Assembly: GCA_022822275.1 (NCBI GenBank)
Contig: JAJEBZ010000120.1
Location: 1-38,023 of the forward strand
Length of the DNA: 38,023 nt
Direction of reading: 5' to 3'
From: Candidatus Poribacteria bacterium
GTDB taxonomy: Bacteria; Poribacteria; WGA-4E; WGA-3G
Made by a program: the position numbers and the translations under genes. Positions 4,424-38,023 of this stretch are shown in pieces; the stretch's first letter is position 1, and each line of letters opens with the position of its first letter. Below the pieces are notes generated by a model. The model was not told the DNA's origin and searched no databases. It saw nothing but the letters and a program-made list of their open reading frames with translations.

Positions 4424-4424
4424 T

Positions 4425-5201
4425 TTAGTGTCCCTCCCCAAAGGTGCGCGGTTTATAGCCAGTATAGTCGGATAGAAACAGAATAACATCCCAAATCTCG
4501 TCTTGTGTTAGATAGTTTTCCCAGATAGGCATAGCAGAATTCCAAGGAGTACCAGCTGCAGGCATACCAGGTCCTCCTTTACTAATGCGCCAGAAAAAGA
4601 ATGATTCTGAGAAATTAGGAAGAACACCCGGGTCTTGGAAATTCGCTGGTAACGGATTCAACGCATCAGCAAAATGCCCTTTACCATCAAGATGGTCACC
4701 ATGACAATAAAAACAGTTCTGATAATAGACGGTTCTGCCATTCTCTACATGTGACTTATACGCTTCAGGATCATCCTTTTCCAAATGGCGATGCGGGTTT
4801 TCTGCCTCATCCATTGTACCAAGCACTATATCCTTGTATGTCAAATTGTCTGGCGGTGTTGGATGAACAGTCCGAGGGTCTCCGGGTGGATTCGCCTTTT
4901 TGGCAATATTCGTGTAGGTAAATCCGAGCATAAGAAGCGGGATCAACACTGCAAAAACAAGTCTGCGGGTTTGACGATTTTCATCAACGAGTGTCTCGTG
5001 AATAGGACGTAGAAATTCCCGAAACCTCGTGTCTTCCACAGAGATATGTACCAGAATCGCGATGAAGACCAATGCCATATACATCGCTATCACGCTATTT
5101 GGGATCGGTTTTGAGATAACACCACCGACGAAAAATCGCAAAAATACCCAACATACGATGAATATTGCAAAACATATTGTGAAAAGAGATGGTTTTTTCA
5201 T
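4425..5201 (-). CDS. Membrane-bound monoheme cytochrome c
   Basis: A 258-residue protein with three hydrophobic segments (~7-29, 37-54, 80-98) and then a periplasmic class I cytochrome c domain with CFYCH at 163-167. The probable axial Met lies in the later AMPIWENY motif. It is shaped like a membrane subunit that carries electrons at the surface of an integral complex. The ATG at 5201 is chosen over an upstream TTG because GAGG lies 6-7 nt before it. It sits between the diheme cytochrome (5249-6793) and the cytochrome/EB_dh fusion (one-base gap), so the three are clearly one operon with the CydA-like gene. The exact partner is inferred. Confidence 0.85.
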   Translation of the reverse strand: MKKPSLFTICFAIFIVCWVFLRFFVGGVISKPIPNSVIAMYMALVFIAILVHISVEDTRFREFLRPIHETLVDENRQTRRLVFAVLIPLLMLGFTYTNIAKKANPPGDPRTVHPTPPDNLTYKDIVLGTMDEAENPHRHLEKDDPEAYKSHVENGRTVYYQNCFYCHGDHLDGKGHFADALNPLPANFQDPGVLPNFSESFFFWRISKGGPGMPAAGTPWNSAMPIWENYLTQDEIWDVILFLSDYTGYKPRTFGEGH

Positions 5202-5248
5202 GGTTGACCTCAAGTTACGACTTGTTCATCACACAACTCTTATGCGTG

Positions 5249-6793
5249 TTATTCCGTGACCTCTTCCTGTGTATCGCTTGATGCCTCATTGGTTTCTTCT
5301 TCTGCAGTTGCACCTGTCAATGTGCTTAGGTATGCAAGCAGGTCCGCCATTTCTCGAAAACTCAAAAGATCGGGGAAGTTATTTGGCATTGGGGATTTAA
5401 CCTCCAACCTTTTGCCAGAAGCAGATGCTAAGACAGAATTATCCGTATCTATATCAAACGTATCAAAAGTTTCTTCATTTCCATCAACAATGATTACGAT
5501 CTCAAAGTCATCCAATGTTCCAGACACATGTTCACCGACAGTCTTTACTCCATCAAAATCAATGAGTGTCGCCTGTTTTTTCACATCTATTTTTGATACT
5601 GTTTGTGTTTCGTCACCGACCTTTAGCGTTACAGTCGTATCGCTTTCCTCAACGATTTCTCCGCTTACGGGTGCGTCAGCGTCAATAGGTGTTATCGTTA
5701 ATGTCAAATAGCCTCGCCCCTTTAGGTCTGTCAGGTCTTCAATCGGTTCTTCATCAAGATCGCTCAAAAGGATAGTGTGTTCTGTTTCTGTTCCGTCTTC
5801 TGCTTTTGTCCGGACAACGATCTTTTCTGTATCCTGTGAGACAAGCGTGCCCTGGTAGGTTACACCTTGTGCGATCACGGTTACAGAACCATAACCGCTT
5901 ACTATTTCGGCATCAGGGAGTATGATCGATTCCTCAAGATAACGCAGTTCGTTAAATGCAGCGATCTCCGTGAGTTCTGGTGCAGTGACGACTTCAAAGT
6001 CCTCATTACCTTCTCCTGCCTTTGGGTTCTCTAATCCTTGGATTTCGTGACAGGAGATACAAGCTGCGTCTATAAATACCCTTTTTCCTTCTTCAGGATC
6101 ACCGGTAAGCAATGGTGGAAGTGCTTCCGCAGCTGTTCCTATTTCCTTCCTATCAATAGGTTCATCAAAGGGTGTTGGGTCAATTTCACCGCCTTGGCTT
6201 TGTAGAAATGCTATCACGGCTTCAATCTCTAATTTTGTAAGTGCTATCGGATTTTTCCATACTTCAGGCATAATTTTGCCGTATCCTGGCACTAAGTATT
6301 TACTCGGTTCATACAGAGACTCAATGAGATATGTTTTTGCATCTTTTCCGGGTTCTCGATTTGCTGCATTGTTTCCAATGTCTGATAAATCAGGACATCT
6401 TCCCTTTGGTGCAGAGGTGTCTAAGGTGTGGCACGCACTACACTGACCTTTTCCATTAAAAATAGCTAGTCCGATTTCAGCCACCGCATCCGGATCGCTC
6501 CAATCTAATTCAGTCACCGTTCCGGTATTAGTTGATGTATCTGGCACCCATGCAGCGATGAGTGCAAAGAACCAGACAACCCCCAAGGCATAAGTCATTA
6601 GCTTCACGACAATGCCCCATACAAACATATTTAACAGTACTGCAATGAGAAACCAAACCGACCACGGCAACAAGTTCTCAGAACCAATTGGAAAAGCCGG
6701 AGCTTTCGCCAAAAAAGCGATGAAACTCACCAATAATAATAAGAGCCCCGCGATTTTCAAGAGTGTGTTTTTTACTGATTGTGTTTCTTCCAT
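5249..6793 (-). CDS. Membrane-anchored diheme cytochrome c with a large beta insert
   Basis: A 514-residue protein. Three hydrophobic segments (~10-30, 42-62, 64-82) precede two cytochrome c domains: CSACH at 118-122 with Met175, and CISCH at 245-249 with Met469. Between the second heme motif and its Met lie ~165 residues (300-465) of beta-rich sequence made of about three related units (GTLVSQDTEKIVV, GEIVEESDTTVTL, GTLDDFEIVII). Single copies of such units occur in the Planctomycete-type heme-binding domain (TIGR02603-like). The ATG at 6793 shares a base with the TGA of the CydA-like gene (TGATG), which indicates coupled translation and equal supply of both subunits. The start was placed by this overlap and not at an upstream in-frame codon. 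Confidence 0.85.
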   Translation of the reverse strand: MEETQSVKNTLLKIAGLLLLLVSFIAFLAKAPAFPIGSENLLPWSVWFLIAVLLNMFVWGIVVKLMTYALGVVWFFALIAAWVPDTSTNTGTVTELDWSDPDAVAEIGLAIFNGKGQCSACHTLDTSAPKGRCPDLSDIGNNAANREPGKDAKTYLIESLYEPSKYLVPGYGKIMPEVWKNPIALTKLEIEAVIAFLQSQGGEIDPTPFDEPIDRKEIGTAAEALPPLLTGDPEEGKRVFIDAACISCHEIQGLENPKAGEGNEDFEVVTAPELTEIAAFNELRYLEESIILPDAEIVSGYGSVTVIAQGVTYQGTLVSQDTEKIVVRTKAEDGTETEHTILLSDLDEEPIEDLTDLKGRGYLTLTITPIDADAPVSGEIVEESDTTVTLKVGDETQTVSKIDVKKQATLIDFDGVKTVGEHVSGTLDDFEIVIIVDGNEETFDTFDIDTDNSVLASASGKRLEVKSPMPNNFPDLLSFREMADLLAYLSTLTGATAEEETNEASSDTQEEVTE

Positions 6794-8706
6794 CAGTCGT
6801 TTCCTTCTGCTATTGCTTCTGATTCCATTGTAGGAACCGCTTTCTGCTTTTTCCTTTCCCCCCACAAACCGAGCCAGAATATAAATCCGACAAGAGCAAA
6901 GAAGATCACCATAATGATTGAGACCATGTTCACGGCACTACTCAGTGAGGGTGTAAAGGCATCAGCAGAGGTGTCTTTCATGACACCAAATATATGCCAT
7001 CCTTCACGTAAACCGGAACGCGCATAACCCATCAATCCCATAAGAGAGGTAAATGTAATTGCCAGAAGTATTAAAACGTATTGTGACCGCTCCGTCATTT
7101 CTCCCCATTTGATAGTGCCAGATGTCGTTGCTTTTCGATACATGAAGATATCAATGATTGTCACGACAACCATAACAGCAAGCGCGACCAGCACTTGCCA
7201 AGGTGTCAACACATTAACGCGAACATCACTTTCAACTGCAAATCCAACAATGCCGATGACAACAATTACAACTACACCTAAAAAGAAAACGGATGAAATA
7301 ATGATGTTCCCCAGTTTTTTCCAATTTGCGGTAGGTTTTTTCCCTGAACGTCTATAAAACAGAAAACTCAAGAAAGTTGTCAGGATAACGATATTAACCA
7401 CAGTATTCTTTGCAGTCATCAAACCGAATAAGCCAAGATGTGGGTGGTTTGAACCTCCCATCGCAGTTTGTTCTGAAGCAGATGAAATACTGGAAAGTGT
7501 ACGTGGTGTCATCCAGATACCGACACAAATCACAATAATTGCAATCATGATGGGACGATAACGCGCATATTTCTCTGCCCCCTCAATACGTCCCATTCCA
7601 GACCATAGGTAGTAGTTTGCGCCGATAAATAGGATACCAATCATCACCGCTTGTATAATAAACAGCCATGAAAACAGCGCACCCATCATGTTCACACCCA
7701 TGGTGTTGTTGAACATATAGATTTCTCTACCTAACCAATAGCCCGCGAATGGGAGTGGTATCAAACCGCACAAGGCGATAAAGTTTCCGTTGTATCCCAT
7801 CCAATCGTAATGTGCTTTTTCCTCTTTTGTTTTCGCAACAAGGAAACGAAAGGCTGCATAAGCTGCAACAATTGATCCGCCAAAGGCTATGTTACCGATG
7901 AGACGGTGGATATTGACCGGCATCCAGGTAAAATTGTTGACTGCGTCCATGACAGTACCCAAGAATTCACCCGTTGTTTCGTTATGTAGATTGATGACAG
8001 TGGTATCTGTTACCTCTTTTAAGACTTCCGCACGGGTTAATTCAGGATTCTGTGATAGAGTGTGTTCTAACCATCCTTCTTTTGCCTGATCTGATAACTT
8101 GCCGTATTGCGTTGCGGGACTTGTCTGGTAAGTCAGCCATGTGTTTGAGACAAACATAATCGCTGTGCCCCAAATGTTCAACAATACTCCCAAGAATAGA
8201 TGCCACCCTTTATGACGGCCCTGCATCTTATCCCAACCGTATGAATAGAGGTACAACGTGAATGTTTCTCCAAAGAACAGCACAACGTAGAATATCATCG
8301 TCGGACCGAATATCCCACTTAACTTGCTCAGCACCTTCGGATAGCACCAAACAAGAATAAAGACGAGAACACCACCAAGTAGTGCGGTTGTAGAAAATGC
8401 CCCCATACAGAGTTTGATAAACTCTTGTGCCATTCGGTCATACCGTTCCTCCTTGGTTTTCCAACCAATGAATTCAATGATAACAGCGAACATCGGCACA
8501 CCTAAAATAAACGAACCGAACAATAGGTGCAATTGTGCTGCAATCCAAGCAGCGTTTCTACTACCGATCATCGGAAATGGACGATATTCCGCGTCTGTCA
8601 TATCCTGTGCAAATGCTGGTACAATTGAAAACAGAACAAAACCAAGCAGCACAAAACCGATTATGAGGAATATTCGCTTCTTCGTCTGTGATGTGCAACG
8701 ACGCAT
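6793..8706 (-). CDS. CydA-like (cytochrome bd superfamily) oxidase subunit, without a CydB partner
   Basis: A 637-residue integral membrane protein. The first ~35 residues look like a signal sequence or extra helix. Residues ~50-195 match CydA closely: His60 in QLHLLFGSFILG (position of E. coli His19), Glu147 in GETFTLYLYSYGWDKM (position of Glu107), and the later FVSNTWLTYQTSP block. His267 in NIHRLIGNIAFGG fits the heme b558 His. No acidic residue stands at the Glu99 position (Phe/Tyr there), and the GRQPW quinol-site motif is absent. No cydB is nearby; three anchored cytochromes c follow instead. Known bd-superfamily branches lack the quinol site, so oxidation of cytochrome c or cupredoxin is the likely activity. 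Oxygen as acceptor is inferred. Confidence 0.8.
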   Translation of the reverse strand: MRRCTSQTKKRIFLIIGFVLLGFVLFSIVPAFAQDMTDAEYRPFPMIGSRNAAWIAAQLHLLFGSFILGVPMFAVIIEFIGWKTKEERYDRMAQEFIKLCMGAFSTTALLGGVLVFILVWCYPKVLSKLSGIFGPTMIFYVVLFFGETFTLYLYSYGWDKMQGRHKGWHLFLGVLLNIWGTAIMFVSNTWLTYQTSPATQYGKLSDQAKEGWLEHTLSQNPELTRAEVLKEVTDTTVINLHNETTGEFLGTVMDAVNNFTWMPVNIHRLIGNIAFGGSIVAAYAAFRFLVAKTKEEKAHYDWMGYNGNFIALCGLIPLPFAGYWLGREIYMFNNTMGVNMMGALFSWLFIIQAVMIGILFIGANYYLWSGMGRIEGAEKYARYRPIMIAIIVICVGIWMTPRTLSSISSASEQTAMGGSNHPHLGLFGLMTAKNTVVNIVILTTFLSFLFYRRSGKKPTANWKKLGNIIISSVFFLGVVVIVVIGIVGFAVESDVRVNVLTPWQVLVALAVMVVVTIIDIFMYRKATTSGTIKWGEMTERSQYVLILLAITFTSLMGLMGYARSGLREGWHIFGVMKDTSADAFTPSLSSAVNMVSIIMVIFFALVGFIFWLGLWGERKKQKAVPTMESEAIAEGND

Positions 8707-8811
8707 TTTGGGGTTTCTCTCAAATGTTGTTTTTTCAACTTAAAATCTAAAGTTTGTATGCCAAGTTGCGTGAATGCAAACCTGACATACAATACATTAT
8801 TGGTGATACTA

Positions 8812-9579
8812 CTATTTTGCCTTAGGTTTCTTGAAATCGGTGCTTTTGAAGTCTACAGAGACATCACCATCCGCAGGAACAGTAATGGTTTTATTCGCTG
8901 AACCGAGTGTTTCATGCCATGCAATCACACGCGCTCTGCCTTCTGGCACCTCTTTGAAAGTAAATTTGCCGGTATCAGACGATTTTTCATAATCATCTGG
9001 ATGAATCCATTTGTCCTCTTTATCCTTTTGTCCCGTAACTGTATAAAAGTTACTATTAACAGCTACGATATAACCGCTCATCCAAGCGTGAATATCGCAT
9101 GTCAGCTTGATCGCTTCTGCTTTGGTGATCTTATATTTGTAGACATCACCTTTTTTCGGAATCTGGATATTTGGAGCTTCATTTTGCGCTGCATGTGAGT
9201 GCACATTGTGTGCAACAGGATCGGCAGATGTAATCGTTACGGTAGCACCTACGGGAACAGCGATCACATGAGGCAAATAACGGCAGTCTTTTTGGTCAAC
9301 AACAGGTGCTTTCTCTGGCATCTTTAGTTCCTGGCTACCACGAAGACGAACTGATATAACAACATTTTGGATGCCTTTTCCTTTTGACACAACAAGTGTC
9401 TCAGATTTTGCACCTTTTGTGGCTGTAATACAGTGTTGTTCCTCTGTGTTAATTGTCAAAGCCTTCCGTGCAGGTACATCCCCTTCATAAGTTACCGTGC
9501 CAGTGATATTTCCGGCAAGGGCAACACTCGCTATTGTACTACAGATGAGTACCGCTATAATAGTCTTGAGGTTTTTCAT
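8812..9579 (-). CDS. Periplasmic cupredoxin-like protein
   Basis: A 255-residue secreted protein with a clear signal peptide (1-22, VALA-GN). A type 1 copper ligand set is visible: His124 in AHNVH, then Cys161, His164 and Met167 in CDIHAWM. The C-terminal ~50 residues are a beta domain (GKFTFKEVPEGRARVIAWHE) as in its paralogue at 1838-2647. It probably shuttles electrons in the periplasm between the bc-type complex and an oxidase. The ribosome binding site AGGAG is 7 nt from the ATG. It begins its own stretch after a hairpin at 9664-9677 and lies 105 nt before the CydA-like gene. Copper binding is inferred from the motif. Confidence 0.8.
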   Translation of the reverse strand: MKNLKTIIAVLICSTIASVALAGNITGTVTYEGDVPARKALTINTEEQHCITATKGAKSETLVVSKGKGIQNVVISVRLRGSQELKMPEKAPVVDQKDCRYLPHVIAVPVGATVTITSADPVAHNVHSHAAQNEAPNIQIPKKGDVYKYKITKAEAIKLTCDIHAWMSGYIVAVNSNFYTVTGQKDKEDKWIHPDDYEKSSDTGKFTFKEVPEGRARVIAWHETLGSANKTITVPADGDVSVDFKSTDFKKPKAK

Positions 9580-9663
9580 GGTTCTTCTCCTTATATAATT
9601 CTTTTTATTTTATCTATATTAACACCTTAAGTTTTGAAAAGGCAAACCGTTAAAAACAAACAT

Positions 9664-9677
9664 CACGGATATCCGTG
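9664..9677 (-). terminator. Perfect 14-bp palindrome, terminator-like (copy 1)
   Basis: CACGGATATCCGTG starts five bases after the stop of the small cytochrome c gene. On the minus strand it is followed by a T-rich stretch (ATGTTTGTTTTT), as in a weak intrinsic terminator. The identical 14-mer recurs at 15712-15725, also just after a stop codon. An operator role for the downstream gene, whose start is ~85 nt away, is the alternative. Confidence 0.45.
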
Positions 9678-9681
9678 TGTA

Positions 9682-10038
9682 TTAAGGGGTGAACATATTT
9701 TTTATGTACTCAAGTAGTTCTTCCTGTTCGTCATCACTGAGGTAGTAATGAAACGCTGGCATATCGTCTTTACCATCTCGAATGCTTTCAAGCAGGTGTG
9801 CATCGTCATGCATCGTCCACAAATCACTATCTGTCAGATCAGCAGGAGCTAATTTTTTAAAACGTCCAATCCGTCCATCCCCTTCACCACTGTAACCATG
9901 GCATCCAGAGCAGTATCGTTTATAGTTATATTCAACTTCTGTTTGATGCTTTGTGCTTGGATCAATCTGATTACCTAACCAGATAAACCCGTTTAACCAC
10001 ACAAATATCATCACAACGATAATCAGTAGATGTTTCAT
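9682..10038 (-). CDS. Small membrane-anchored cytochrome c
   Basis: A 118-residue monoheme cytochrome c. One N-terminal hydrophobic segment (~4-22) serves as signal anchor. CSGCH at 43-47 binds heme and the Met in DDMPAF is the likely second ligand. It has the usual size of a single class I domain. It lies 50 nt after the octaheme cytochrome and is the last gene of the Rieske/cytochrome b unit before a hairpin. The likely role is to carry electrons from the bc-type complex to an oxidase. No clear Shine-Dalgarno precedes the ATG, so the start rests on the fit of the hydrophobic segment. Confidence 0.85.
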   Translation of the reverse strand: MKHLLIIVVMIFVWLNGFIWLGNQIDPSTKHQTEVEYNYKRYCSGCHGYSGEGDGRIGRFKKLAPADLTDSDLWTMHDDAHLLESIRDGKDDMPAFHYYLSDDEQEELLEYIKNMFTP

Positions 10039-10088
10039 TTAGGACGGATACCCTCGCGTAGGGACGAATTCAATCCGCACCTACTTCA

Positions 10089-13000
10089 CTAACGTCCCAA
10101 CGATAATAGATAGTCACGAACCAACCGAATCTGTTTTTCTGCATCTCCATCGGCATAGTCCCCATAAGGGGTGTGTTTTCCATCAGAAAGTGGCCACGCT
10201 TGCGGCATTGCAGTGCCGCGTTGGAACTGCTGGGGATCTTTCATCCAGTCAATCAACCAATCTGGCTTGAGTCTACCATTCGCCAAAGATAGGTCTGGCC
10301 TTCCCGCTTTGTCACTACCAGCGGGAATGGTCTCGCCTACTGATGGATGACACGAGTCGCATTTCAGGTCATCAAATATCTGTTTGCCAACGCGTAATTC
10401 AGCAGAAGTTGACTCTGGTGGTGCAAGTGTTTCGTAAGGGAACGGTTCATCGTCTAATGCATAGAAGTATTTGACAAGGGTCGTTGCCTCTTCATCTGAC
10501 ATATCAAATGTGGGCATACGCACCTTGAGACCGTAACGTATCTCTTTGGAAGGATCTTTGAGGAAGTTAAACAACCAATCGGGATAGACTCGTGCGCCTT
10601 CCGCCTGCAATGGAGGCGGTGACAACTGCTTGCCAGTAATCTCATCTAAACCTTCATGTGCTATGATAACATCACTATATTCTCCGCCTTCACCTTCAAT
10701 CACGTGACATCCTGTGCAGTTATATTTCTTGACGACGCGCCTACCAGCATCAATTTGTTTCTGTTTCTCAACCCGATCCGGTTCAACTGCATGATCAAAG
10801 GTATAACTGAGTGGATAAGCCTCCGGTTGAAAACTCTTCAATAGAACAGCGAGTGCTTTGGCATCCTCGTCGTTATCCTTGAGATTATTGAAAACAGGCA
10901 TACGAGAAACTATCCGACGCGTCTGGTAACGGCGTGGGTTAGTGATTTTTCCTATCGTCCACGCATGCCACGAATGATGGTCTATATCTACAGCATCACC
11001 GTAGTCAAGTTCCGCTGCAAGTTTTGCACCAAATTCACCGAGATCCGCACCCACTTTCGATTCATTTTCAAACCCGGGTATTTCATGACAACCGAAACAT
11101 CCGTAAGTTCTGACAAGTTTTTCCCCTTCCGCAACGTCAATATCACCTACTGATTCGGTGGCAGGCATCGTGGTCGGTTTTTGCAAACTCATAAGGTACG
11201 CGACGACGTCATTTAACTCCGTTTGGCTTAACCGCAAACTTGGCATTGAAGTATTAGGATCGTAGGCTTTTGGGTCTTCAATCCAATTGCGGAGGTAGTT
11301 TGGTGTAACTTTTGTCCCAACACTATCCAAAGCTGGTGCAAAATCGCTACCTAAATCCCCAACAGCATGGCAGGAAAGACACCCAACGGTTTTTACCGTC
11401 TCTTCACCCGCTTTAATCGCACTTTCAGATTTAGAGTATGTGACTTGTGAATCATCTAACGTTTGATCTGTCATTGTAGCCAAATAGGCTGCAATAGATT
11501 TTACTTCGTCAACAATACGCAAGACATCATCCTTGGCATAAGGAAATTCTGTACCGTCATCTGTCCTCACAGTATAATTGGTGTCAGTTTCAGTAACAAT
11601 CCCCGTACGTTGTCCACCATTCTTTAAGTAAACAATTTGGCTCATGCCTTCCACGGGAAAGAAATTGGGCATTGTGGTATTTGGGAGGTATGCTTCGGGT
11701 TCTTTTATCCAACTTTCAAGCCATGCAATATCCTGTACCTTGCTTCCGATCTTATCAAGTGCGGGCCCAACCTTTGCGATATTATCCAACGCACTGTAAC
11801 CCTCTACAGCATGACACCCATGACATCCGAGGTCTTCAAAGAGTGCCAATCCCTTTGTAAGATGCGGTGCATAGTCTATCGGAGCATTTGTTTCGGAGTC
11901 CATACCGAAGTCTAACTTCATCACGCCATCGTGGCAACGCCGACAATTAGACTCCATATATCCCTTTTCCTCTTCAGATGTTCTACCTGTTTTGGCATCC
12001 ATCCCAAGTACAGGTGTCAACCAGTATTCGGCATGTGTTAACGCGTGAGCAGATTTTGCTGTCAGTCCGCGTCCTTGCCCCCCGTGGCAAGGTGTACATC
12101 CGAATTTTTCAAGCGGGTGCTTAGCAAGAAGAACATCGCGATGCGGATGAGTCCGTAAGGCACGATGGTAATCTGTTTCATAAGAAATCTCTACCTCACC
12201 AAACACATCAGGATCCGTAAAGGTAAGCAGACCTTCTTCCGATAGTTCGTATTCATCCGCTTCTACATCAAATCCGTCAATATAGATTGTCTCACTGCCG
12301 GGTCTAACCCTTGGATGTTTGAGCTGGTATTTTACGAGCTCTACACCATCACCTTCTATTTCAAAAGTCTCTTGTGCGGTACTATCGTACCCGCTCTTGT
12401 CAACTGCAAAATGGCAGGTTTCACACCTATCCGCCTTATAATCAAAGTCTTCAAGGTAGTGTTGCACAATAGTCCGAGTTTCTCTGAATGGGTTTTCTAA
12501 TAAACTACCGAGGAAAGTTCGTTTGATACCGCCAACATCTGCCAATTTCTCTTTGATACGATCCACTGCAGCATATTCAGCTTTCACCGCTTCCAGGGCA
12601 GCAAGCGATTGTTGAACCGTAGCAATCCCTTCAGCAATAGACGTATCGTTCGGTTTATATTTTTGTGCTATGAGGTAGGTGGAAAGTGCATTCTCAGGGT
12701 CGTTGTTCGTTTGATAAAAAACGGCAAGTGTCTTATTTACATCAGCATATTCATTCTGTGCTTCTATGATAGCATCGGTGAGTTCACCTTCAATTCGTTG
12801 TTCATAGTCGTCTAATTTATCTTTCCATTTTTTTACTTTTTCAGTCTCTTCACCTTTTGCTTCGTGAAGACTATGTTGATATTTATAATTAATCGCATCA
12901 GATTTACTCTGTTCAAACTTACGTGCTTGCATCGCCTCATCTAACGCAACCTTCTTTATATTTACCTCTTTTTCCAATTTACTCAATGCGTTTCTATCAA

Positions 13001-13232
13001 TCTCAGGTTCGGATGGTTTTTCTGGTAAGTTTTTCTCTGCGATTTCTAATTCTGTCTTCGTTTTTTCATATTCATATTGATAGAACTTCTGTTGCAGCTC
13101 TTTCCAAGGACGGCGCGTGATCATTTCATCCCAGAATCCCCATACCGTCACCAATCCTAACAGTGCCGACAGAATAAAGAATAAAGCAGCATAAGATTTA
13201 TTTTCAACAGGAATCTCTTTTTTGCTCCTCAC
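10089..13232 (-). CDS. Octaheme cytochrome c with N-terminal membrane anchor and coiled coil
   Basis: A ~1047-residue protein. Residue numbers here count from a TTG six codons upstream (13250). One membrane segment (~20-38) is followed by a Lys/Glu-rich helical region to ~250, likely coiled coil, with a short TPR-like patch (~170-200). Eight CXXCH motifs follow, starting at 276, 385, 436, 476, 624, 718, 845 and 964. Five of them (476 onward) have class I-style Met ligands at 527, 669, 784, 912 and 1015. One domain carries a short beta insert (NGGQRTGIVTETDTNYTVRT). The GTG at 13232 is preferred because GGAGG lies ~11 nt before it. It follows cytochrome b and subunit IV, so it probably replaces cytochrome c1 as electron exit. 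Confidence 0.85.
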   Translation of the reverse strand: MRSKKEIPVENKSYAALFFILSALLGLVTVWGFWDEMITRRPWKELQQKFYQYEYEKTKTELEIAEKNLPEKPSEPEIDRNALSKLEKEVNIKKVALDEAMQARKFEQSKSDAINYKYQHSLHEAKGEETEKVKKWKDKLDDYEQRIEGELTDAIIEAQNEYADVNKTLAVFYQTNNDPENALSTYLIAQKYKPNDTSIAEGIATVQQSLAALEAVKAEYAAVDRIKEKLADVGGIKRTFLGSLLENPFRETRTIVQHYLEDFDYKADRCETCHFAVDKSGYDSTAQETFEIEGDGVELVKYQLKHPRVRPGSETIYIDGFDVEADEYELSEEGLLTFTDPDVFGEVEISYETDYHRALRTHPHRDVLLAKHPLEKFGCTPCHGGQGRGLTAKSAHALTHAEYWLTPVLGMDAKTGRTSEEEKGYMESNCRRCHDGVMKLDFGMDSETNAPIDYAPHLTKGLALFEDLGCHGCHAVEGYSALDNIAKVGPALDKIGSKVQDIAWLESWIKEPEAYLPNTTMPNFFPVEGMSQIVYLKNGGQRTGIVTETDTNYTVRTDDGTEFPYAKDDVLRIVDEVKSIAAYLATMTDQTLDDSQVTYSKSESAIKAGEETVKTVGCLSCHAVGDLGSDFAPALDSVGTKVTPNYLRNWIEDPKAYDPNTSMPSLRLSQTELNDVVAYLMSLQKPTTMPATESVGDIDVAEGEKLVRTYGCFGCHEIPGFENESKVGADLGEFGAKLAAELDYGDAVDIDHHSWHAWTIGKITNPRRYQTRRIVSRMPVFNNLKDNDEDAKALAVLLKSFQPEAYPLSYTFDHAVEPDRVEKQKQIDAGRRVVKKYNCTGCHVIEGEGGEYSDVIIAHEGLDEITGKQLSPPPLQAEGARVYPDWLFNFLKDPSKEIRYGLKVRMPTFDMSDEEATTLVKYFYALDDEPFPYETLAPPESTSAELRVGKQIFDDLKCDSCHPSVGETIPAGSDKAGRPDLSLANGRLKPDWLIDWMKDPQQFQRGTAMPQAWPLSDGKHTPYGDYADGDAEKQIRLVRDYLLSLGR

Positions 13233-13295
13233 GAAATGTAAAACCTCCAAATCAATCGAAATATTTAGGACAAAGTTGAGTACAAGTTGTAAGTG

Positions 13296-14162
13296 TTAGA
13301 TGTTTAGCCATGGTGATTCTAAAATATATTTCACATTCAACCCGAGCCGTAGTATCATTTTTATCGGAAGTGCGAGCATTGTTAAAAACAGAAATGAGAC
13401 GATGATGTACCTGATCAACCCAAGTTCCTGTAGAAAACGACTACTTTTAGATTTCCAAAAATAGTAAATTGGTCCAAGCGCGTAATACCCCGCGATAACA
13501 GCAATTCCAAAGAAAATCGCTGTTGTTTCACCTCGAATCCCAATCAAACTTGAAAGGTTGACGTTTGTCAACGGCACAACTTTGTGCGGATCCCAATACT
13601 GCCACGGCATAAAGATGTTCCACCCAGGACCTCTAAGGAATGTCCCAACTATCATTAAGACAATCCACAATATCAAAAACCCGAAGCAGAAAACTGCAAG
13701 CGCGAAAGGACGCTCCTTGATCGTATAATATCCTTTCCCTTTCGGGTTGATATCAATATACGGAATAGCGATAAGCCCTACAATAATGAGCCCTGGCAAC
13801 ACCACCCCCGCTATCCATGGGTCAAAATAGACCAACATCTCTTGGAGCGCAAGGAAGTACCATGGAGCTTTAGAGGGATTCGGTGTTTTGGCAGGATCAC
13901 TCGGTTCTTCAAGCGGGGCATCAATCATAATTGACCACACACCCAAAACCAACATTATAATAATTGCACAAATAAACTCATTACGACAGAGATAGGGCCA
14001 AACATAAACCTTGTCATTTAATGCTGCATCGGATGGAACACCTGTGCGGTCTGTTCGCCGCGCTTGCCTGTATGATAACCATAGAAAGAATGGGATCAAA
14101 AACAGAATTGCCAAAATCGGCACATTATCAGGTTTCGTTATTAGTGCTAAAAAATGCTCCAT
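13296..14162 (-). CDS. Cytochrome b C-terminal part (subunit IV / PetD-like)
   Basis: A 288-residue membrane protein with about seven hydrophobic segments, matching the C-terminal half of cytochrome b. The block PSDPAKTPNPSKAPWYFLAL contains the position of the Qo-site PEWY motif, here APWY, so the usual Glu is replaced by Ala. Such variants occur in some low-potential quinol complexes. With the b6-like gene upstream it makes a split cytochrome b, as in b6f-type complexes. It is longer than PetD (~160 residues) and has extra helices at both ends. The gene runs from an ATG at 14162 and lies ~127 nt after the b6-like gene. It is part of a quinol:cytochrome c oxidoreductase. Confidence 0.88.
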   Translation of the reverse strand: MEHFLALITKPDNVPILAILFLIPFFLWLSYRQARRTDRTGVPSDAALNDKVYVWPYLCRNEFICAIIIMLVLGVWSIMIDAPLEEPSDPAKTPNPSKAPWYFLALQEMLVYFDPWIAGVVLPGLIIVGLIAIPYIDINPKGKGYYTIKERPFALAVFCFGFLILWIVLMIVGTFLRGPGWNIFMPWQYWDPHKVVPLTNVNLSSLIGIRGETTAIFFGIAVIAGYYALGPIYYFWKSKSSRFLQELGLIRYIIVSFLFLTMLALPIKMILRLGLNVKYILESPWLNI

Positions 14163-14289
14163 ATCTAACTTCTATCTCCTTCAAAACGAGAAAATATCGT
14201 AACCATTTTCCAAACCCTATAGGTGCACTGGACACCTCGACCATATTACCGATCTAATCTATTAAACTTCATTGAGAAAATACCTGTTC

Positions 14290-15060
14290 CTAAAGAGGTC
14301 CGGATATTCCACCATCTTTACGCACACGCCAGAAATGCAACGCCATCAACACACTTGCCACCAACGGAACTGCAACACAATGCAAAATATAGAACCTTAA
14401 TAACGTTGATGGTCCAACAATCGTCCCCGCAAGCAACGCGAACCGCACATCATTCGCCTGCGTAATATCCGACGGCGCAAAGGGACCTTCATGTCCTAAA
14501 ACAGGGGTGGCACGTGCCATATTCGTTCCAACTGTTACTGCCCAATATGCAAGTTGATCCCACGGTAACAGATAACCTGTGAAACTCAAGAAGAATGTGA
14601 TGAGCAACAAAATAACACCAACTGCCCAATTGAACTCACGGGGTTTCTTATAAGAACCTGTTAAAAATACTCTAAACATGTGGAGCATCACGGAGATAAC
14701 CATACCATGTGCCGCCCATCGGTGCATGTTCCGTAATAGCATACCGAAAGGGATATCAAATTCAAGTGCTTGTATGTCGGCGAAGGCATATTCGGCTGTC
14801 GGACGGTAGTAAAACATCAACAGAACACCTGTGACTGCTGTCACAAGAAACATCAAGAAGGTGATACCACCCATACACCATGTGAATCGAAAGTTTAATG
14901 CGTGGCGAGAAATACGAGGCGGATGCAAATGCAACCATACGTTCTGTAGAACCTGCAGTGTATAACGGCGGCCCGTTTTTTCGTAACCGTGCCGGAAAAT
15001 AGATTTCCAAATATCGGAATTCGTTATCTTTTCTTTTAGTCCTTTTCGTTCTTCGTTCAT
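14290..15060 (-). CDS. Cytochrome b6-like subunit (quinol:cytochrome c oxidoreductase)
   Basis: A 256-residue membrane protein with four core helices. The four heme ligands are visible: His113 and His127 in one helix and His227 and His242 in another. The second pair is spaced 15, as in b6-type proteins, where bc1-type proteins have 14. Cys62 in WCMGGITF matches Cys35 of cytochrome b6 (YCLGGIT), which binds the extra heme ci/cn covalently, so a third heme is expected. The ATG at 15060 is chosen because AAGGA lies 5 nt before it; an upstream in-frame Met has no such support. It is flanked by the Rieske and subunit IV genes. Confidence 0.92.
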   Translation of the reverse strand: MNEERKGLKEKITNSDIWKSIFRHGYEKTGRRYTLQVLQNVWLHLHPPRISRHALNFRFTWCMGGITFLMFLVTAVTGVLLMFYYRPTAEYAFADIQALEFDIPFGMLLRNMHRWAAHGMVISVMLHMFRVFLTGSYKKPREFNWAVGVILLLITFFLSFTGYLLPWDQLAYWAVTVGTNMARATPVLGHEGPFAPSDITQANDVRFALLAGTIVGPSTLLRFYILHCVAVPLVASVLMALHFWRVRKDGGISGPL

Positions 15061-15123
15061 TATTTCCTTTTTCTGTCTGATGATGCAAACCATCATCTCA
15101 GACGCAAATGGTACCCCCTTAGG

Positions 15124-15609
15124 TTAGACTTTCAAAGATGCGCCAGGGTCCCCCCATTGACCTTTTTCACCCAAAAACTTGATGGATTTGTCAATTTGAA
15201 GTTGCCCATCTTCTGCCAAAGTAATCTTCACCCGTTCAAGTGGGCGTGGGGCAGGGCCTTCGTAGTTAATCCCATCACGGTCGAAACCGCTACCGTGGCA
15301 CGGACATTTGAATTTATTTTCGGAAGAGAGCCAACGCGGCGTACACCCCAAGTGTGTGCAGGTTGTCAGGAGCGCATAAAACTCTCCATCCTGACGACGA
15401 ACAATCCATACACCAAAAGGCTCTTTTTTGTATTTTTCGCTAACACTTCCCGGAGGATATTCAGCAGGAAAACCCGCTTTAAAAACTGACGAAGGTTCAT
15501 ACAGAACGCGCGGATATAGATAACGCACTAAACCCGGACCGAAACACAATCCGAGTGCTGCAGTGAAACTTCCCCAACCGAGTGATGTGAAAAATGTACG
15601 TCGATTCAA
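15124..15609 (-). CDS. Rieske iron-sulfur protein
   Basis: A 161-residue protein with a twin-arginine-like N-terminus (NRRTFFTSLGWGSF) that serves as membrane anchor. The 2Fe-2S ligands are Cys84 and His86 in CTHLGC, and Cys102 and His105 in CPCHGSGF; Cys89 and Cys104 form the usual disulfide. It takes an electron from quinol at the Qo site and passes it to the cytochrome c subunit. The start is TTG, supported by AGGGGG 8 nt upstream; a nearby ATG is out of frame. It is the first gene of the respiratory operon and has an extended -10 promoter ~45 nt upstream. Confidence 0.93.
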   Translation of the reverse strand: MNRRTFFTSLGWGSFTAALGLCFGPGLVRYLYPRVLYEPSSVFKAGFPAEYPPGSVSEKYKKEPFGVWIVRRQDGEFYALLTTCTHLGCTPRWLSSENKFKCPCHGSGFDRDGINYEGPAPRPLERVKITLAEDGQLQIDKSIKFLGEKGQWGDPGASLKV

Positions 15610-30963: not shown

Positions 30964-32907
30964 ATGGCTAATAACGTTTTTCCACCGACGGAGACTGCAT
31001 ATCCAATCGGTGATGCTCACGTCAACAGTTTAGAAGCGTATCATGAACGATATGCTGAATCAATTCAAGACCCAGAAGGTTTCTGGGAAACAATCGCTGA
31101 ACGGTTGACGTGGTACAAAAAATGGGATACAGTGCGGGATTATGACTTTGTCAAAGCACAGATAAAATGGTTTGAAGGCGGCACGTTGAACGCCTGTTAT
31201 AACTGCCTTGACCGCCATGTAGAAGCAGGGCATGGAGACGCAACGGCTATTATTTGGGAAGGCAATGACCCCTCCGAAGATAAAACATTCAGTTTCAACC
31301 AACTGCTTGCAGAAGTCAAAAAATTTGCTAACGTATTAAAATCACTAAACGTTCAAAAAGGAGACCGTGTCTGCATCTATTTGCAGATGGTGCCAGAATT
31401 AGCAATCGCAATGTTAGCATGTGCAAGAATTGGTGCAGTCCATTCCATCGTTTTTGGTGCGTTTTCTGCAGAATCATTGCAAGATCGAATCAACGACTCC
31501 GCTTGCAAACTGTTGATAACACAAGACACAGCGTTGCGAGGCACGCGCACCGACATCCCAATGAAAGCAAACGCAGACGCAGCAGTAGAGAATTGTCCAT
31601 CAATTGAAAAAGTTGTTGTCGTGAAGCGAACAGGGGACGCAGTTGATTTTGACACAGCACGCGATGTGTGGTGGCACGAAGCAATGAACACTGCAGAGAC
31701 CGAATGTGAACCAGAAGTGATGAACGCAGAAGACCCGCTCTTCATACTTTATACATCAGGTTCAACCGGAAAACCGAAAGGTGTTTTACACACTACCGGC
31801 GGGTATATGGTATACACCTCTTATACGCACCAACAGATTTTTGACTACCATGAGGGTGATGTCTATTGGTGCACCGCAGATATCGGATGGATTACTGGAC
31901 ATTCCTATATCATTTACGGGCCCCTTGCGAATCGTGCAATTACCGTCATGTTTGAAGGTGTACCGAATTATCCAGACTACGGTAGGTTCTGGCAAGTGGT
32001 AGAGAAACACAAGATCAATCTATTCTACACCGCGCCAACAGCACTACGGGCCTTAATGAAGGAGGGTGATACCTGGGTAGAAAAATACGATAGGTCTACA
32101 CTCCGATTGCTTGGCACAGTCGGAGAACCAATTAAAGAACCAGAATGGTTGTGGTATTATAATATCGTCGGGGACAAACGTTGTCCGATTGTTGATACTT
32201 GGTGGCAGACCGAAACTGGTGGTATTCTAATTACACCATTACCAGCCGTAACCCCTCTAAAACCAGGTTCCGCAACGTTCCCATTCTTCGGCATTGAACC
32301 TGTAATTTTAGACGAAGAAGGAAACGAAGTGGAAGGAAATCCCGCATCCGGTTATCTCTGTATCAAAACAGCTTGGCCCGGCATCATGCGCACTGTCTAT
32401 GGTGATCATGAACGTTTCATTGATGTCTATTTCCGCAGATTCCCCGGTTATTACATGACTGGTGATGGCGTGTTGCGTGATGAAGATGGATATTACTGGA
32501 TTACGGGGCGAGTAGACGATGTGTTGAATGTCTCTGGACATAGGTTAGGCACGGCAGAAGTTGAAGGGGCAATTGGACAACATGATGCCGTTGCAGAAGC
32601 CGCCGTTGTCGGATACCCGCACGACATCAAGGGACAAGGTATCTATGCCTATGTCACACTTATGACAGGTGAATCTGCCTCAGATGATGTCGCAGCAGGC
32701 ATCAAACTGGCAGTACGCCAACATATCGGACCTATCGCTACACCGGACAAAATTCAGTTTACACCTGCATTACCGAAAACACGATCCGGGAAGATCATGC
32801 GCCGCATCCTACGCAAAATTGCCGAAGGCGACATATCTGATCTCGGTGATACCTCTACACTCGCCGATCCCACAGTCGTTGACGCTTTAGTTGAAGGTAG
32901 GCAGTAA
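30964..32907 (+). CDS. acs: Acetyl-coenzyme A synthetase (AMP-forming)
   Basis: A 647-residue cytosolic enzyme that activates acetate with ATP and CoA to acetyl-CoA, at the usual length for the family. The adenylation signature [14 protein letters not shown] lies near residue 261, WWQTETGG near 415 and YYMTGDG.. [22 protein letters not shown] near 498-526. The catalytic Lys610 in SGKIMRR is the residue normally controlled by acetylation. AGGAGAG lies 6 nt before the ATG. It heads a plus-strand run with the ThDP-enzyme gene 15 nt behind, then moeA and a hydrolase. Confidence 0.97.
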
Positions 32908-32922
32908 CGTGCAATTAAGTAA

Positions 32923-33429
32923 ATGAGGGGTCCTGTGGTATCAGCACAAAAAATCGTAGATGCGTTGAAAGAACAAAATATCACCCATGCCGTTGGTGTA
33001 CCAGACAACGGCAGCGCACAAATTTACGAACTGTTACGGGAAGATAAAGAAGTTGATGTTATCACTGTAACACGAGAAGGCGAAGCATTCGCGATCGCAG
33101 CAGGATTATATGTTGGTGGCAAAAAACCCGTTATCATCATTCAAAATACAGGTTTCCTTGAATCCGGTGATGCATTCCGTGGCACAGTTTTTAACATGAG
33201 AATCCCTATTATCGTTATTATTGGATATCGCGGGTTTCACAACCGAGATGCTGATGGTCAATGGGTTGACTCTGTTGCTGCCTTCCTTGAACCAACACTC
33301 AAGGCTTGGAACTTACCTTATAAAATGTTAGAAACAGACGCTGATATTGAAAGCATCGAGTGGGCTTACGGCAAATCTGCGGAAACATCTTTGCCTGCTG
33401 CAGTACTCCTCATCGGTCATGCAAAATAA
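32923..33429 (+). CDS. ThDP-dependent decarboxylase, PYR-domain subunit (sulfopyruvate/phosphonopyruvate decarboxylase-like)
   Basis: A 168-residue protein equal to only the N-terminal pyrimidine-binding half of a thiamine diphosphate enzyme. It resembles the alpha subunit of sulfopyruvate decarboxylase (ComD) and the first domain of phosphonopyruvate decarboxylase. The ThDP-activating Glu lies in TREGEAFAIAAG (~50-61), preceded by GVPDNG. No gene for the diphosphate-binding half is nearby, so the partner must be encoded elsewhere. It lies 15 nt behind acs; an aldehyde product that feeds acetate or acetyl-CoA metabolism is a possible link. Substrate is unproven. The ATG start has a weak ribosome site. 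Confidence 0.75.
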   Translation: MRGPVVSAQKIVDALKEQNITHAVGVPDNGSAQIYELLREDKEVDVITVTREGEAFAIAAGLYVGGKKPVIIIQNTGFLESGDAFRGTVFNMRIPIIVIIGYRGFHNRDADGQWVDSVAAFLEPTLKAWNLPYKMLETDADIESIEWAYGKSAETSLPAAVLLIGHAK

Positions 33430-33495
33430 TGAAAAAAGAAAGGAATAATTAACCCCATGAATGTATCAATCCATAAACTGACTGGAGAGAATTAA

Positions 33496-34698
33496 ATGCT
33501 TAGTGTTGAAGAAGCGCGTCAACAGATGTTAGACACCATTCCCGTGCTACCGACAGAAAAGCTCGAGATATTTGATTGTGCAGGTTATGTACTTGCAGAA
33601 ACACTGCATGCATCAGAAAACATCCCACCGTTTGACAATTCAGCGATGGACGGTTTTGCCGTCTGTTCAGCAGATGTTCAACTGGCATCAAAAGAGAATC
33701 CTACTGTGCTTTCTGTCGTAGAAACAATCGCCGCAGGTTACGCCCCCGAAAAACATGTTTCCCCTGGACAAACTTCGCGAATTATGACAGGCGCGATGAT
33801 GCCTAACGGCGCAGACGCTGTCGTCATGCAAGAGGTGACTGAACTCATCGGTGATGAAGTCAAAATCTTTGAAAGTGTTGAGAAAAATGAAAATGTTCGC
33901 TTCACTGGTGAAAGCGTCCAACAAGGAGATTGTGTCATGTCTCCCGGTAAAGTCCTGCGTCCACCTGAGATTTCAATGCTTGCATCCCTAAATTGTGCCG
34001 AGGTAACAGTTCATCAAAAGCCAACCGTTGCCATTGCCTCCACAGGTGATGAACTTACACCAATCGGGCAACCTTTGACACCCGGAAAAATTCGGGATAG
34101 CAATCGGTACGGTATTTATGCACAAGTTCAGAGTGCTGGGGGTATTCCAATTGACATGGGAATCGCACCTGACGATGAAGTTGAAACTGAACGTATCTTC
34201 CGAGAATCCCTTACAAAAGCTGATGCACTCATCACAAGTGGTGGCGTTTCGGTCGGTGAACATGATGTGGTGAAAAACGTCCTAACGAAATTGGGTGAAA
34301 TGAACTTTTGGCGTGTCGCAATGAAACCAGGAAAACCACAAGTCTACGGCTTTATTGATGGCAAACCCATTTTTGGATTACCAGGCAATCCCGTCTCTTC
34401 ACTCGTAGTGTTTGAGCTGTTTGTCCGTCCTGCACTCCTGAAAATGGCTGGACATACCGACCTATTAAGACCTACATTCAAAGCAGTCCTCGCTGCAGAT
34501 GTCACGAACAGAGATGGACGCGTCAATTATATGCGTGCAATTCTCACGAAACAGAATGGAGAATTCATCGCAAAAACAACCGGCCCGCAAGGGTCTGGAA
34601 TCCTCCATTCACTTGTATTAGCAAATGGATTAATCACTATCCCCGCAGGGGGTACCTTACAGCCAGGAGAAACTGTGGAAGCACAATTCTTACACTAA
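33496..34698 (+). CDS. moeA: Molybdopterin molybdenumtransferase MoeA
   Basis: A 400-residue cytosolic enzyme that inserts molybdate into adenylylated molybdopterin, the last step of molybdenum cofactor synthesis. Length is typical. Visible family motifs are PPFDNSAMDGFAV (~44), RIMTGAMMPNGADAVVMQE (~95-113), TGDEL near 183, TSGGVSVGEHDVV (~249) and FGLPGNPVSS (~294). GGAGAG lies 7 nt before the ATG. No molybdoenzyme is encoded in this window, so its client lies elsewhere. It is followed after 11 nt by the hydrolase gene. Confidence 0.95.
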   Translation: MLSVEEARQQMLDTIPVLPTEKLEIFDCAGYVLAETLHASENIPPFDNSAMDGFAVCSADVQLASKENPTVLSVVETIAAGYAPEKHVSPGQTSRIMTGAMMPNGADAVVMQEVTELIGDEVKIFESVEKNENVRFTGESVQQGDCVMSPGKVLRPPEISMLASLNCAEVTVHQKPTVAIASTGDELTPIGQPLTPGKIRDSNRYGIYAQVQSAGGIPIDMGIAPDDEVETERIFRESLTKADALITSGGVSVGEHDVVKNVLTKLGEMNFWRVAMKPGKPQVYGFIDGKPIFGLPGNPVSSLVVFELFVRPALLKMAGHTDLLRPTFKAVLAADVTNRDGRVNYMRAILTKQNGEFIAKTTGPQGSGILHSLVLANGLITIPAGGTLQPGETVEAQFLH

Positions 34699-35517: not shown

Positions 35518-36375
35518 TTATACATATTCGGAACATTTCAAGTGATCTTCAGGAATTTCAACCGGCAAATCCAGCCGGTCTCCCCACTCTTTCCAAGACC
35601 CAATATAGTTGCTGACCTTCGGATAACCGATAAGCCGCAACGCCAAATAGGTTTGGGAAGAACGGTATCCACCCTGTCAGTAGCACATGACCTGCTTTTC
35701 TGGGGTGATCCCCGCAGCTTCATACATCTGCCGAAGCTCCTCAGCAAGTTTGAAGGCACCATTATCGTCAAGATTGTTGAGCCACTCTACATGTATAGAA
35801 CCGGGAATTGCCCCCGCGCGTTCTGCACGTGCCACTCTGCCGTAATGTTCGTCATCTGTCCGCGTATCTAATGGGATAAAATCTGTCTGGTTCAGCGAAG
35901 CATTTATACTGTCAGCATCCATGTGTATATCGTGCTGTGCTTCAATCGGAAACTCTGGAACTTCAGGCGGTTCAACGCCTTTAGTACTGACAGGTCCGTC
36001 AGCTGCTAACCACGCTTTGTACCCCCCATCTAATACTCGCGTATTCGTATGTCCTAAATACTCACAAAACCATAAACCCCGAGAGGCACGGGTCCCAGAA
36101 ATATCTTCATACCAAATAATCGTTTTGGCATGATCAAGACCGCGCTGTTGAAAAAGGTAAGCGATCATCCACATAAATGTATCATACGTCTCTTTGCGTG
36201 TATTGATAAGACTCAACCCAAATAGATCAAGATGCAATGCACCTGGAATATGCCCGCGTGTGTATTCATGTGCCGGACGCGTATCTACAATACATAACGT
36301 CTTATCATTAAGACTATCTTTCAACGCTTCCGCAGAGATAATCAGTTGCGGGTTATCATAACCTTTGTCTGTCAT
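35518..36375 (-). CDS. Selenoprotein: two-domain rhodanese (thiosulfate sulfurtransferase-like) with Sec at the active site
   Basis: A 285-residue sulfurtransferase if the TGA at 35679-35677 is read as selenocysteine. The N-terminal rhodanese domain (~10-130) is the inactive type, with Asp in [13 protein letters not shown] where a catalytic Cys could be. The C-terminal domain (~150-270) carries the active loop as CY-U233[13 protein letters not shown], where relatives have YCQGG.R. After the TGA the frame stays open for 52 codons with a normal rhodanese end ([20 protein letters not shown]) and stops at TAA. A conventional reading would stop at residue 232 and lose the active site. AAAGGTGG lies 6 nt before the ATG at 36375. 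It is coupled to the MATE gene (one-base gap). Confidence 0.87.
35643..35679 (-). promoter_or_regulatory. Possible SECIS region after the rhodanese UGA
   Basis: Two competing hairpins follow the UGA. One pairs GGG at +3 with CCC at +22, continues past a U-U mismatch and has the loop UACCGU. The other is a perfect CCAAA-CCUA-UUUGG at +21 to +34. Neither is as clean as the hairpin at 27026-27060, so the exact SECIS cannot be fixed by eye. Confidence 0.35.
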
Positions 36376-36376
36376 T

Positions 36377-37765
36377 TCAGACCACCTTTCTGGTAGAATT
36401 ACTACCATCATTGTTTATAACCTTTTTTGTTTTCCATCTTCCAGTTCTATACCATAACCACATAGCACCCCCTTGAACCACGTTTGATAAGGCTATCCCA
36501 ATCCAAACCCCTTTTAGACCGATATGATGTGATAATAGAATGACCAGCACCAAACCAACTCCTAACTGGGCAGCGAGGGTAATCATCATCGGTGAAAAGG
36601 TATCGCCCGCGCCGTTAAGTGCTTTACCTAACACTAAAGAGAACGCTATGAATCCAAACGTGGGGGACAACCATTGAAGAAAATCGGATCCAATCTCAAT
36701 AACCTCTAAATCATCGGTAAAAATTCTAAGAAATATATTGGGGAAAATTAGGAAGAGTGCCCCAATCCCTACCATAAGAACTGTGCCGATTATATTTCCC
36801 ATCCTTGCTGTTTCCTCGGCGCGTTCTATCTGATCTGCACCTACATTCTGACCAACAACAGGTGCTACAGCATTCGCAACGCCAAAACCAGGATTCATGA
36901 CCAATATACGTAACCGCATACATATTATATACGCAGCACCAGCAATTTTACCATAGGGATTTATTACCCACAAAAAACCGAGTCGTGTAAAATGTCGCCA
37001 GAATCCCTGCATAGAACTATAAATCCCTAACCTTAAAATGTCAAGCATTTCAACAAGATCAGTCCGAAACTGAACATTACGTAAAGAGATCGGCGCACGC
37101 CCACTGAAACAGAGGATAAGCAAAATAACCACACCGACCCCCCTGCCGATGAGCGTTGCATACGCTGAGCCTGCAACGCCTAATTTCGGAAAATGCCATA
37201 GACCAAAAATCAGAAGTGGATCAAGTCCAATGTTAATCAACGTAGAGAAAATCAGCACAATCATGGGTGTAACGGCATCACCACCTGCACGGAAGATAGA
37301 ACCGAGTGTCATTGACAGAAACATCGTGCTGATACCGACAAGGATGATATGCATATAAGTGGTACCAAGTGTTAGTACATCCGGTTCCGTTGTCCTTATC
37401 GCACGTAAACCAAACTCTGCCAATGGGTACCCAACAACACCGATACCTACGGAAAAGAAAAAGGCGAGTAGAATCGCCTGCATAGACACATAACTTGCTT
37501 GCGCATAATTTCTCGCACCAAGGTACTGTGCCACCATAATACCAGCACCCGTTGAGATACCGAGTGAAAATATTCCGACCAATCTGAGCAAATTACCACT
37601 ATAACCAACTGCTGCAATCGCAGCCGGACCCAACCTGCCAACAAAAATCATGTCAACGATATTAAACGCATCTTGTAAGATGTACCCACACGTTATCGGC
37701 ACAGCAAGTTTTAACAAATGGCGTAGCAAACTACCTTGCGTCAAATCACCTCGTGTTTTATCCAT
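36377..37765 (-). CDS. MATE family multidrug/cation efflux protein
   Basis: A ~462-residue integral membrane protein with about twelve helices in two related halves, the size and layout of NorM/DinF-type Na+- or H+-driven exporters. Family features include LAVPITCGYILQDAFNIVDMIFVGRLGPAAIAAVG near the N-terminus and GVANAVAPVVGQNVGA at the start of the second half. The ATG at 37765 has AAGGA 5 nt upstream; a TTG just before it is the alternative. Its TGA stop is one base before the selenorhodanese ATG, so the two are co-transcribed. The substrate is unknown. Confidence 0.93.
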   Translation of the reverse strand: MDKTRGDLTQGSLLRHLLKLAVPITCGYILQDAFNIVDMIFVGRLGPAAIAAVGYSGNLLRLVGIFSLGISTGAGIMVAQYLGARNYAQASYVSMQAILLAFFFSVGIGVVGYPLAEFGLRAIRTTEPDVLTLGTTYMHIILVGISTMFLSMTLGSIFRAGGDAVTPMIVLIFSTLINIGLDPLLIFGLWHFPKLGVAGSAYATLIGRGVGVVILLILCFSGRAPISLRNVQFRTDLVEMLDILRLGIYSSMQGFWRHFTRLGFLWVINPYGKIAGAAYIICMRLRILVMNPGFGVANAVAPVVGQNVGADQIERAEETARMGNIIGTVLMVGIGALFLIFPNIFLRIFTDDLEVIEIGSDFLQWLSPTFGFIAFSLVLGKALNGAGDTFSPMMITLAAQLGVGLVLVILLSHHIGLKGVWIGIALSNVVQGGAMWLWYRTGRWKTKKVINNDGSNSTRKVV

Positions 37766-38023
37766 CAATATCCTTACTTCCTACCAATGAAAATTAAAAA
37801 AAATACTTGACATTGTTTGAGAAGTATAGTATACTACATTTCAAGAATAATGTTTTGTCATTTTCATTACACTAATTTTCTTATAAAAATAAATTTGACA
37901 TTGTTTATCATCTAATCAGGTTATAACATCACAGCACATAGATATGTTTATTTTAATTTGTTGTGTGGGCGCGGGGCCGGGGAGGGGGGGGGGGTTTTTG
38001 GGGGGGGGGGTGGTGGGGTGGGG
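37766..38023. other. AT-rich end of window with promoter-like repeats and a poly-G artefact
   Basis: No gene seen. TTGACATTGTTT occurs twice (37807-37818 and 37895-37906). The first copy forms a near-perfect promoter pointing right: TTGACA, 17 nt, TATACT at 37830-37835. From ~37967 the sequence turns abruptly into almost pure G with no biological character, probably a sequencing or assembly artefact of the contig end. Confidence 0.65.
37807..37835 (+). promoter_or_regulatory. Sigma70-type promoter reading off the right edge
   Basis: TTGACA at 37807-37812, a 17-nt spacer and TATACT at 37830-37835. It is divergent from the MATE gene, so a gene to the right was probably lost at the contig end. 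Confidence 0.5.

Follow-up and report, generated by a model that had tools for sequence, protein, structure and literature searches.

The closest described relatives of the locus examined here are rhodaneses of COG2897 that contain selenocysteine (Sec). Three such sequences were predicted from Sargasso Sea metagenomes in 2005 (PMC1088965), the GOS survey gives eight Sec rhodanese sequences under cd01449 (PMC2398784), and a 2026 review designates the COG2897 Sec rhodanese 'form 4', with a UxxG motif and MCY3690685.1 as its example (PMC13188914). The sections of the two surveys that concern this protein support the earlier statement, made in an original prediction from the DNA letters alone, that rhodanese-like selenoproteins have been reported in marine metagenomic surveys; in those sections, neither set of sequences is given with host lineages. 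The form described here is, unlike in those sections, standard in most of the Poribacteria families sampled, and it also occurs in Latescibacterota and others. Poribacteria are known chiefly from marine sponges, and the literature searched yielded no report of a Sec rhodanese, or of any selenoprotein, from them. This kind of Sec rhodanese has been known since 2005; its phylum-wide occurrence in Poribacteria is new.

The window, by which we mean the whole 38,023-nucleotide stretch of DNA that was analyzed, carries the following features at this locus:

35518-36375, minus strand: predicted Sec-containing tandem-domain rhodanese (SseA/TST type, COG2897), 285 aa, with Sec as residue 233
36375-36373 and 35520-35518, minus strand: ATG start codon and TAA stop codon of the rhodanese, from the open reading frame
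35677-35679, minus strand: in-frame UGA, with predicted Sec at the persulfide-forming Cys position of the loop U-Q-G-G-Y-R, from alignment with solved enzymes
35659-35675, minus strand: conserved UGA-proximal hairpin, a candidate non-canonical SECIS or part of one, with +4 to +10 paired with +14 to +20
35632-35676, minus strand: strong synonymous constraint over codons +1 to +15 after the UGA (p = 2e-6 versus the rest of the gene)
36377-37768, minus strand: MATE-family efflux transporter gene (PF01554, E 2e-58), directly upstream

Translated through the TGA at 35679-35677, the gene yields two Pfam rhodanese domains (PF00581, E 3e-37). Exactly 52 codons lie between this TGA and the TAA in the minus-strand reading, and they complete the domain as had been predicted. 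The TGA had also been placed at the catalytic Cys, and alignment with SseA/TST (COG2897) proteins agrees, with residue 233 falling on the catalytic Cys of the solved sulfurtransferases 1e0c, 1uar, and 3aax. Read conventionally, the gene was expected to look like a dead enzyme, and it does: translation would end right before the nucleophile (...VMCY), leaving a dead product, and the gene would be annotated as a truncated rhodanese.

The solved structures closest in sequence are the two-domain sulfurtransferases 1e0c (Azotobacter vinelandii) and 1uar (Thermus thermophilus), which are also the top full-length PDB fold matches (TM ~0.8) of a structure predicted by AlphaFold2 from a 31-sequence alignment (pLDDT 93.8). 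The protein shares with Cys-type TST/MST enzymes (1e0c, 1uar, and E. coli SseA, 1urh) its fold, an alignable loop, and two rhodanese domains of which the second is catalytic, but it differs in having Sec for Cys, the loop UQGGYR, and ~30% identity. Against the E. coli-type 3-mercaptopyruvate sulfurtransferase equivalog NF008557 (NCBIfam) it scores 105 bits, below the curated cut-off of 250, and it is therefore not SseA/MST proper and belongs to the same superfamily only. Two further families, NF041203 rhodanese_LYCAU (CxU) and TsoB (NF045694), likewise combine a rhodanese domain with Sec but have other architectures and motifs; the window's rhodanese scores 44 bits against a cut-off of 115 for NF041203 and 25 against 805 for TsoB. 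The COG2897 Sec rhodaneses remain the nearest described kind, matched here by description: they have the same COG, Sec for Cys, the UxxG motif (here U-Q-G-G), and PF00581.

The active-site loop, U233-Q-G-G-Y-R238, lies in the C-terminal domain. Its six residues, the nucleophile first and Arg last, are invariant in 31 diverse members, with U/C233, Q234, G235, G236, Y237, and R238 unchanged down to 49% identity, and across the same alignment a C-terminal SWKEWGDR motif is mostly invariant. The N-terminal rhodanese domain is without a nucleophile at the corresponding place. Cys231 was considered as a resolving residue and ruled out, being Ser in four orthologues of family f4 and Pro in some Latescibacterota. 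The homologue alignment holds no second conserved Cys near Sec233, and Sec would therefore act alone with external thiols. From alignment and conservation, we conclude that the protein is very probably a genuine Sec sulfurtransferase of the two-domain type, in which a predicted selenenyl sulfide (Sec-Se-SH) replaces the Cys persulfide.

Conservation of the codon was followed by an orthologue search in 60 genomes and a broader scan of about 85,000 species genomes. TGA stands at exactly this codon in all 45 full orthologues from three Poribacteria families (f1, f2, and f4), the window included; the others have 64-92% protein identity. Three orthologues from a fourth family, f3, have TGC or TGT there in the 60-genome search, as do more distant class members. 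Of the 80 related loci from the broader scan, 72 have TGA, the remaining 8 have TGC, and no further codon occurs; these loci span Poribacteria, Latescibacterota, Gemmatimonadota-labelled metagenome-assembled genomes (MAGs), Nitrospinota, and Deltaproteobacteria. The MAGs that carry TGA forms bear the labels Poribacteria, Latescibacterota, Gemmatimonadota, and Nitrospinota, and all five deltaproteobacterial MAG loci (one labelled Syntrophobacter) have Cys. Sec and Cys forms share 50-60% identity, and a quick tree of 46 proteins requires a minimum of three switches between them. Median dN/dS is 0.061 before the TGA and 0.055 after it, so purifying selection is equally strong on both sides, and the 45-codon tail past the TGA has dN/dS ~0.05; the tail is therefore unlike untranslated sequence, and the region after the TGA appears to be translated. 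TGC or TGT at this site had been named as the result that would count against Sec; dozens of independently assembled genomes have TGA. On this comparative evidence, the TGA is real and old. As a separate observation, several Sec-rhodanese MAGs labelled Gemmatimonadota/Gemmatimonadetes in NCBI (L150, L156, L157, L164, and L167) cluster with Latescibacterota in the protein tree, and their labels may be outdated.

The host draft genome (Candidatus Poribacteria, 4.5 Mb, 320 contigs, 96.4% complete) encodes most of the Sec machinery that the prediction called for. Above their curated cut-offs are selA (618 bits, cut-off 268), selB (358 bits, cut-off 242, with two SelB winged-helix domains recognized), and, adjoining selB, a tRNA-Sec with a UCA anticodon (78.5 bits, cut-off 47). 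The missing part is selD, which was not found in the draft, the best match being a 25-bit paralogue. Among the 60 relatives, 53 have selD above cut-off, each with a single in-frame TGA, which in the examples read (L050-L059) lies near the SelD start, where Sec or Cys belongs; in family f3, too, selD still has its TGA. The selD of Poribacteria is thus itself a predicted selenoprotein gene. Because the draft is 96.4% complete and selD is present in nearly all relatives, we read its absence as an assembly gap. Given the genes for SelA, SelB, and tRNA-Sec, the host is predicted to be able to make Sec, and the conservation of the codon suggests that it decodes UGA in this way. MnmH, the selenouridine synthase, exceeds its cut-off in one of 85 genomes of the phylum (L173); nearly the whole phylum lacks it, and selenium therefore appears to serve protein Sec, not tRNA selenouridine. 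That sole MnmH-bearing genome belongs to family f3, whose rhodanese has Cys, not Sec.

These data bear on two readings in which the codon would not be Sec. The gene could be a pseudogene or a sequencing error, a Cys rhodanese whose TGC or TGT has changed to, or been misread as, TGA, and a loss could be tolerable, since the same genome encodes a Cys-type paralogue (G000:C36). The same TGA nevertheless recurs in every full orthologue and in nine-tenths of the related loci, from many separate assemblies, with downstream dN/dS at 0.05 and the Sec machinery encoded. TGA conservation and dN/dS rule this reading out, and we regard its probability as negligible. Alternatively, the lineage might have recoded UGA as another amino acid, for example Trp or Gly, as could be argued from in-frame UGA being open in two gene families, rhodanese and selD. 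The second of these is a classic Sec site, however, and the genome encodes SelA, SelB, and a tRNA-Sec (UCA); the alternative residue at the rhodanese site is always Cys, and TGA terminates some rhodanese orthologues (G017, G043, and G038). An altered genetic code is rejected on this last ground and is next to impossible. Sec at residue 233 is the reading that we carry forward.

The signal for Sec insertion looks unusual. By the published rule for bacterial SECIS elements, the apical loop lies 16-37 nt past the UGA and has a G within its first two positions; some bSECIS elements violate these rules (PMC13188914). A scan for hairpins with this loop distance, a G within the first two loop positions, and an energy <= -7.5 kcal/mol recovered the E. 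coli fdhF positive control and found a match in 3 of 74 Sec sequences; in the other 71, the window among them, no hairpin obeys the rules. An Rfam search gave no SECIS match. Because some bSECIS elements break the rules, this failure is not decisive against Sec. Folding of the region after the UGA, suggested with the original prediction, thus gave no canonical SECIS but did give a conserved UGA-proximal hairpin as a candidate. Numbered with the U of UGA as 0, its positions are paired in 93.8% of cells, versus 44-73% when the pairing is slid. Compared with synonymous shuffles, the native segment folds more stably (mean z -2.5 across 65 Sec sequences and -1.4 across 11 Cys sequences). The Cys forms thus also show the hairpin, to a lesser degree, and the encoded GGYR motif therefore accounts for part of it. 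Compensatory changes were not seen among the aligned sequences, and the hairpin is therefore a candidate, not a proven element. An RNAalifold helix from 42 aligned sequences, tiny at three pairs with one covarying, barely exceeded shuffles and was dropped.

Codons +1 to +15 after the UGA contain the highest 10-codon constraint windows of the whole gene. Across 45 Poribacteria sequences, the fixed synonymous codons are TAC at +4 (45/45), TCT at +6 (45/45), and CAG at +1 (44/45). An RNA recoding signal that overlaps coding sequence would be expected to leave such constraint, which may reflect one here. In several selD genes of the same clade, a small hairpin presents a loop containing G some 15-18 nt beyond the UGA. 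We tentatively propose, as a possibility that we ourselves find doubtful, that Sec insertion uses a non-canonical SECIS, a hairpin a few bases past the UGA that is common to Poribacteria, Latescibacterota, and Nitrospinota, with the clade's selD apparently using a near-canonical hairpin. The apical loop of the rhodanese candidate lies 7-8 nt downstream of the UGA, half the published minimum. If the proposal is true, one SelB would have to read two signal classes, this one and the near-canonical one of selD.

The gene neighborhood offers few hints. The MATE gene ends one base before the rhodanese ATG, and the two are probably co-transcribed; the transporter is the sole conserved neighbor, and the pair is conserved within the family only. 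In the neighborhoods compared, no linkage of the rhodanese to sel genes was seen, nor any metabolic hint beyond the transporter. Elsewhere in the window, open reading frames read by eye at 2717-15609 (minus strand) include genes resembling those for c-type cytochromes, for a cytochrome b/Rieske complex, and for a quinol-type membrane subunit, in an apparently respiratory cluster with several multi-haem-motif frames. At 30964-34698 (plus strand), also by eye, an acetyl-CoA synthetase-like gene precedes a 168-aa frame that resembles thiamine-pyrophosphate decarboxylases, possibly of the sulfopyruvate decarboxylase alpha type, and a MoeA-like gene comes next; this gene order is kept in another genome (G010, L080). 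Only three sequences of a phage collection matched, with identities of about 30%.

We propose a mechanism inferred from rhodanese chemistry. The ribosome would read the UGA as Sec with the SelA/SelB/tRNA-Sec system. In the resulting protein, the N-terminal rhodanese domain would be catalytically inactive and the C-terminal domain would work, with Sec233 as the first of the six residues of the anion-binding loop U-Q-G-G-Y-R. Thiosulfate, 3-mercaptopyruvate, or a persulfide of low molecular weight would donate a sulfane sulfur to the selenol of Sec233, giving Sec-Se-SH, and this sulfur would then pass to a nucleophile such as a thiol, thioredoxin, or cyanide. Because the Cys-type paralogue, at about 30% identity and with a CRIGERS active-site loop in the host, is kept in the same genomes, the Sec enzyme probably has a role separate from it.

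Other roles for the Sec form can be envisaged. Rhodanese-type enzymes can bind selenium, and this one might function mainly in selenium traffic, for example by supplying SelD with selenium; its gene occurs in Sec-using genomes, and the phylum almost entirely lacks MnmH, another selenium enzyme with a rhodanese domain. The gene is not linked to sel genes, however, and close Cys forms exist in family f3 and in Deltaproteobacteria. Family f3 moreover keeps its TGA-containing selD, so Sec in the rhodanese seems unneeded for Sec synthesis. The genomes compared hold no evidence favoring selenium handling over ordinary sulfur transfer, and we consider such a role unlikely. A peroxide- or persulfide-reducing redox enzyme, as opposed to a sulfur carrier, would fit the redox roles presumed for most uncharacterized bacterial selenoproteins (PMC9312934). 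Against it stand the full six-residue rhodanese loop ending in Arg, which is invariant, and the lack of a second conserved Cys near Sec to resolve a selenenyl intermediate, which together make a redox function improbable. Sulfur transfer by Sec233 is accordingly our preferred reading of the role.

Conventional reading of these genes would lead to the annotation of a truncated, dead rhodanese in all such genomes. The lack of a canonical SECIS is a departure from the present rule for bacteria that can be put to the test. With Sec and Cys forms at 50-60% identity and few switches in the tree, the family offers a clean natural set for the benefit of selenium in sulfur transfer. Collectively, a selenoprotein family known from a few metagenomic fragments proves to be stably kept by most of the Poribacteria families sampled, and other lineages have related forms.
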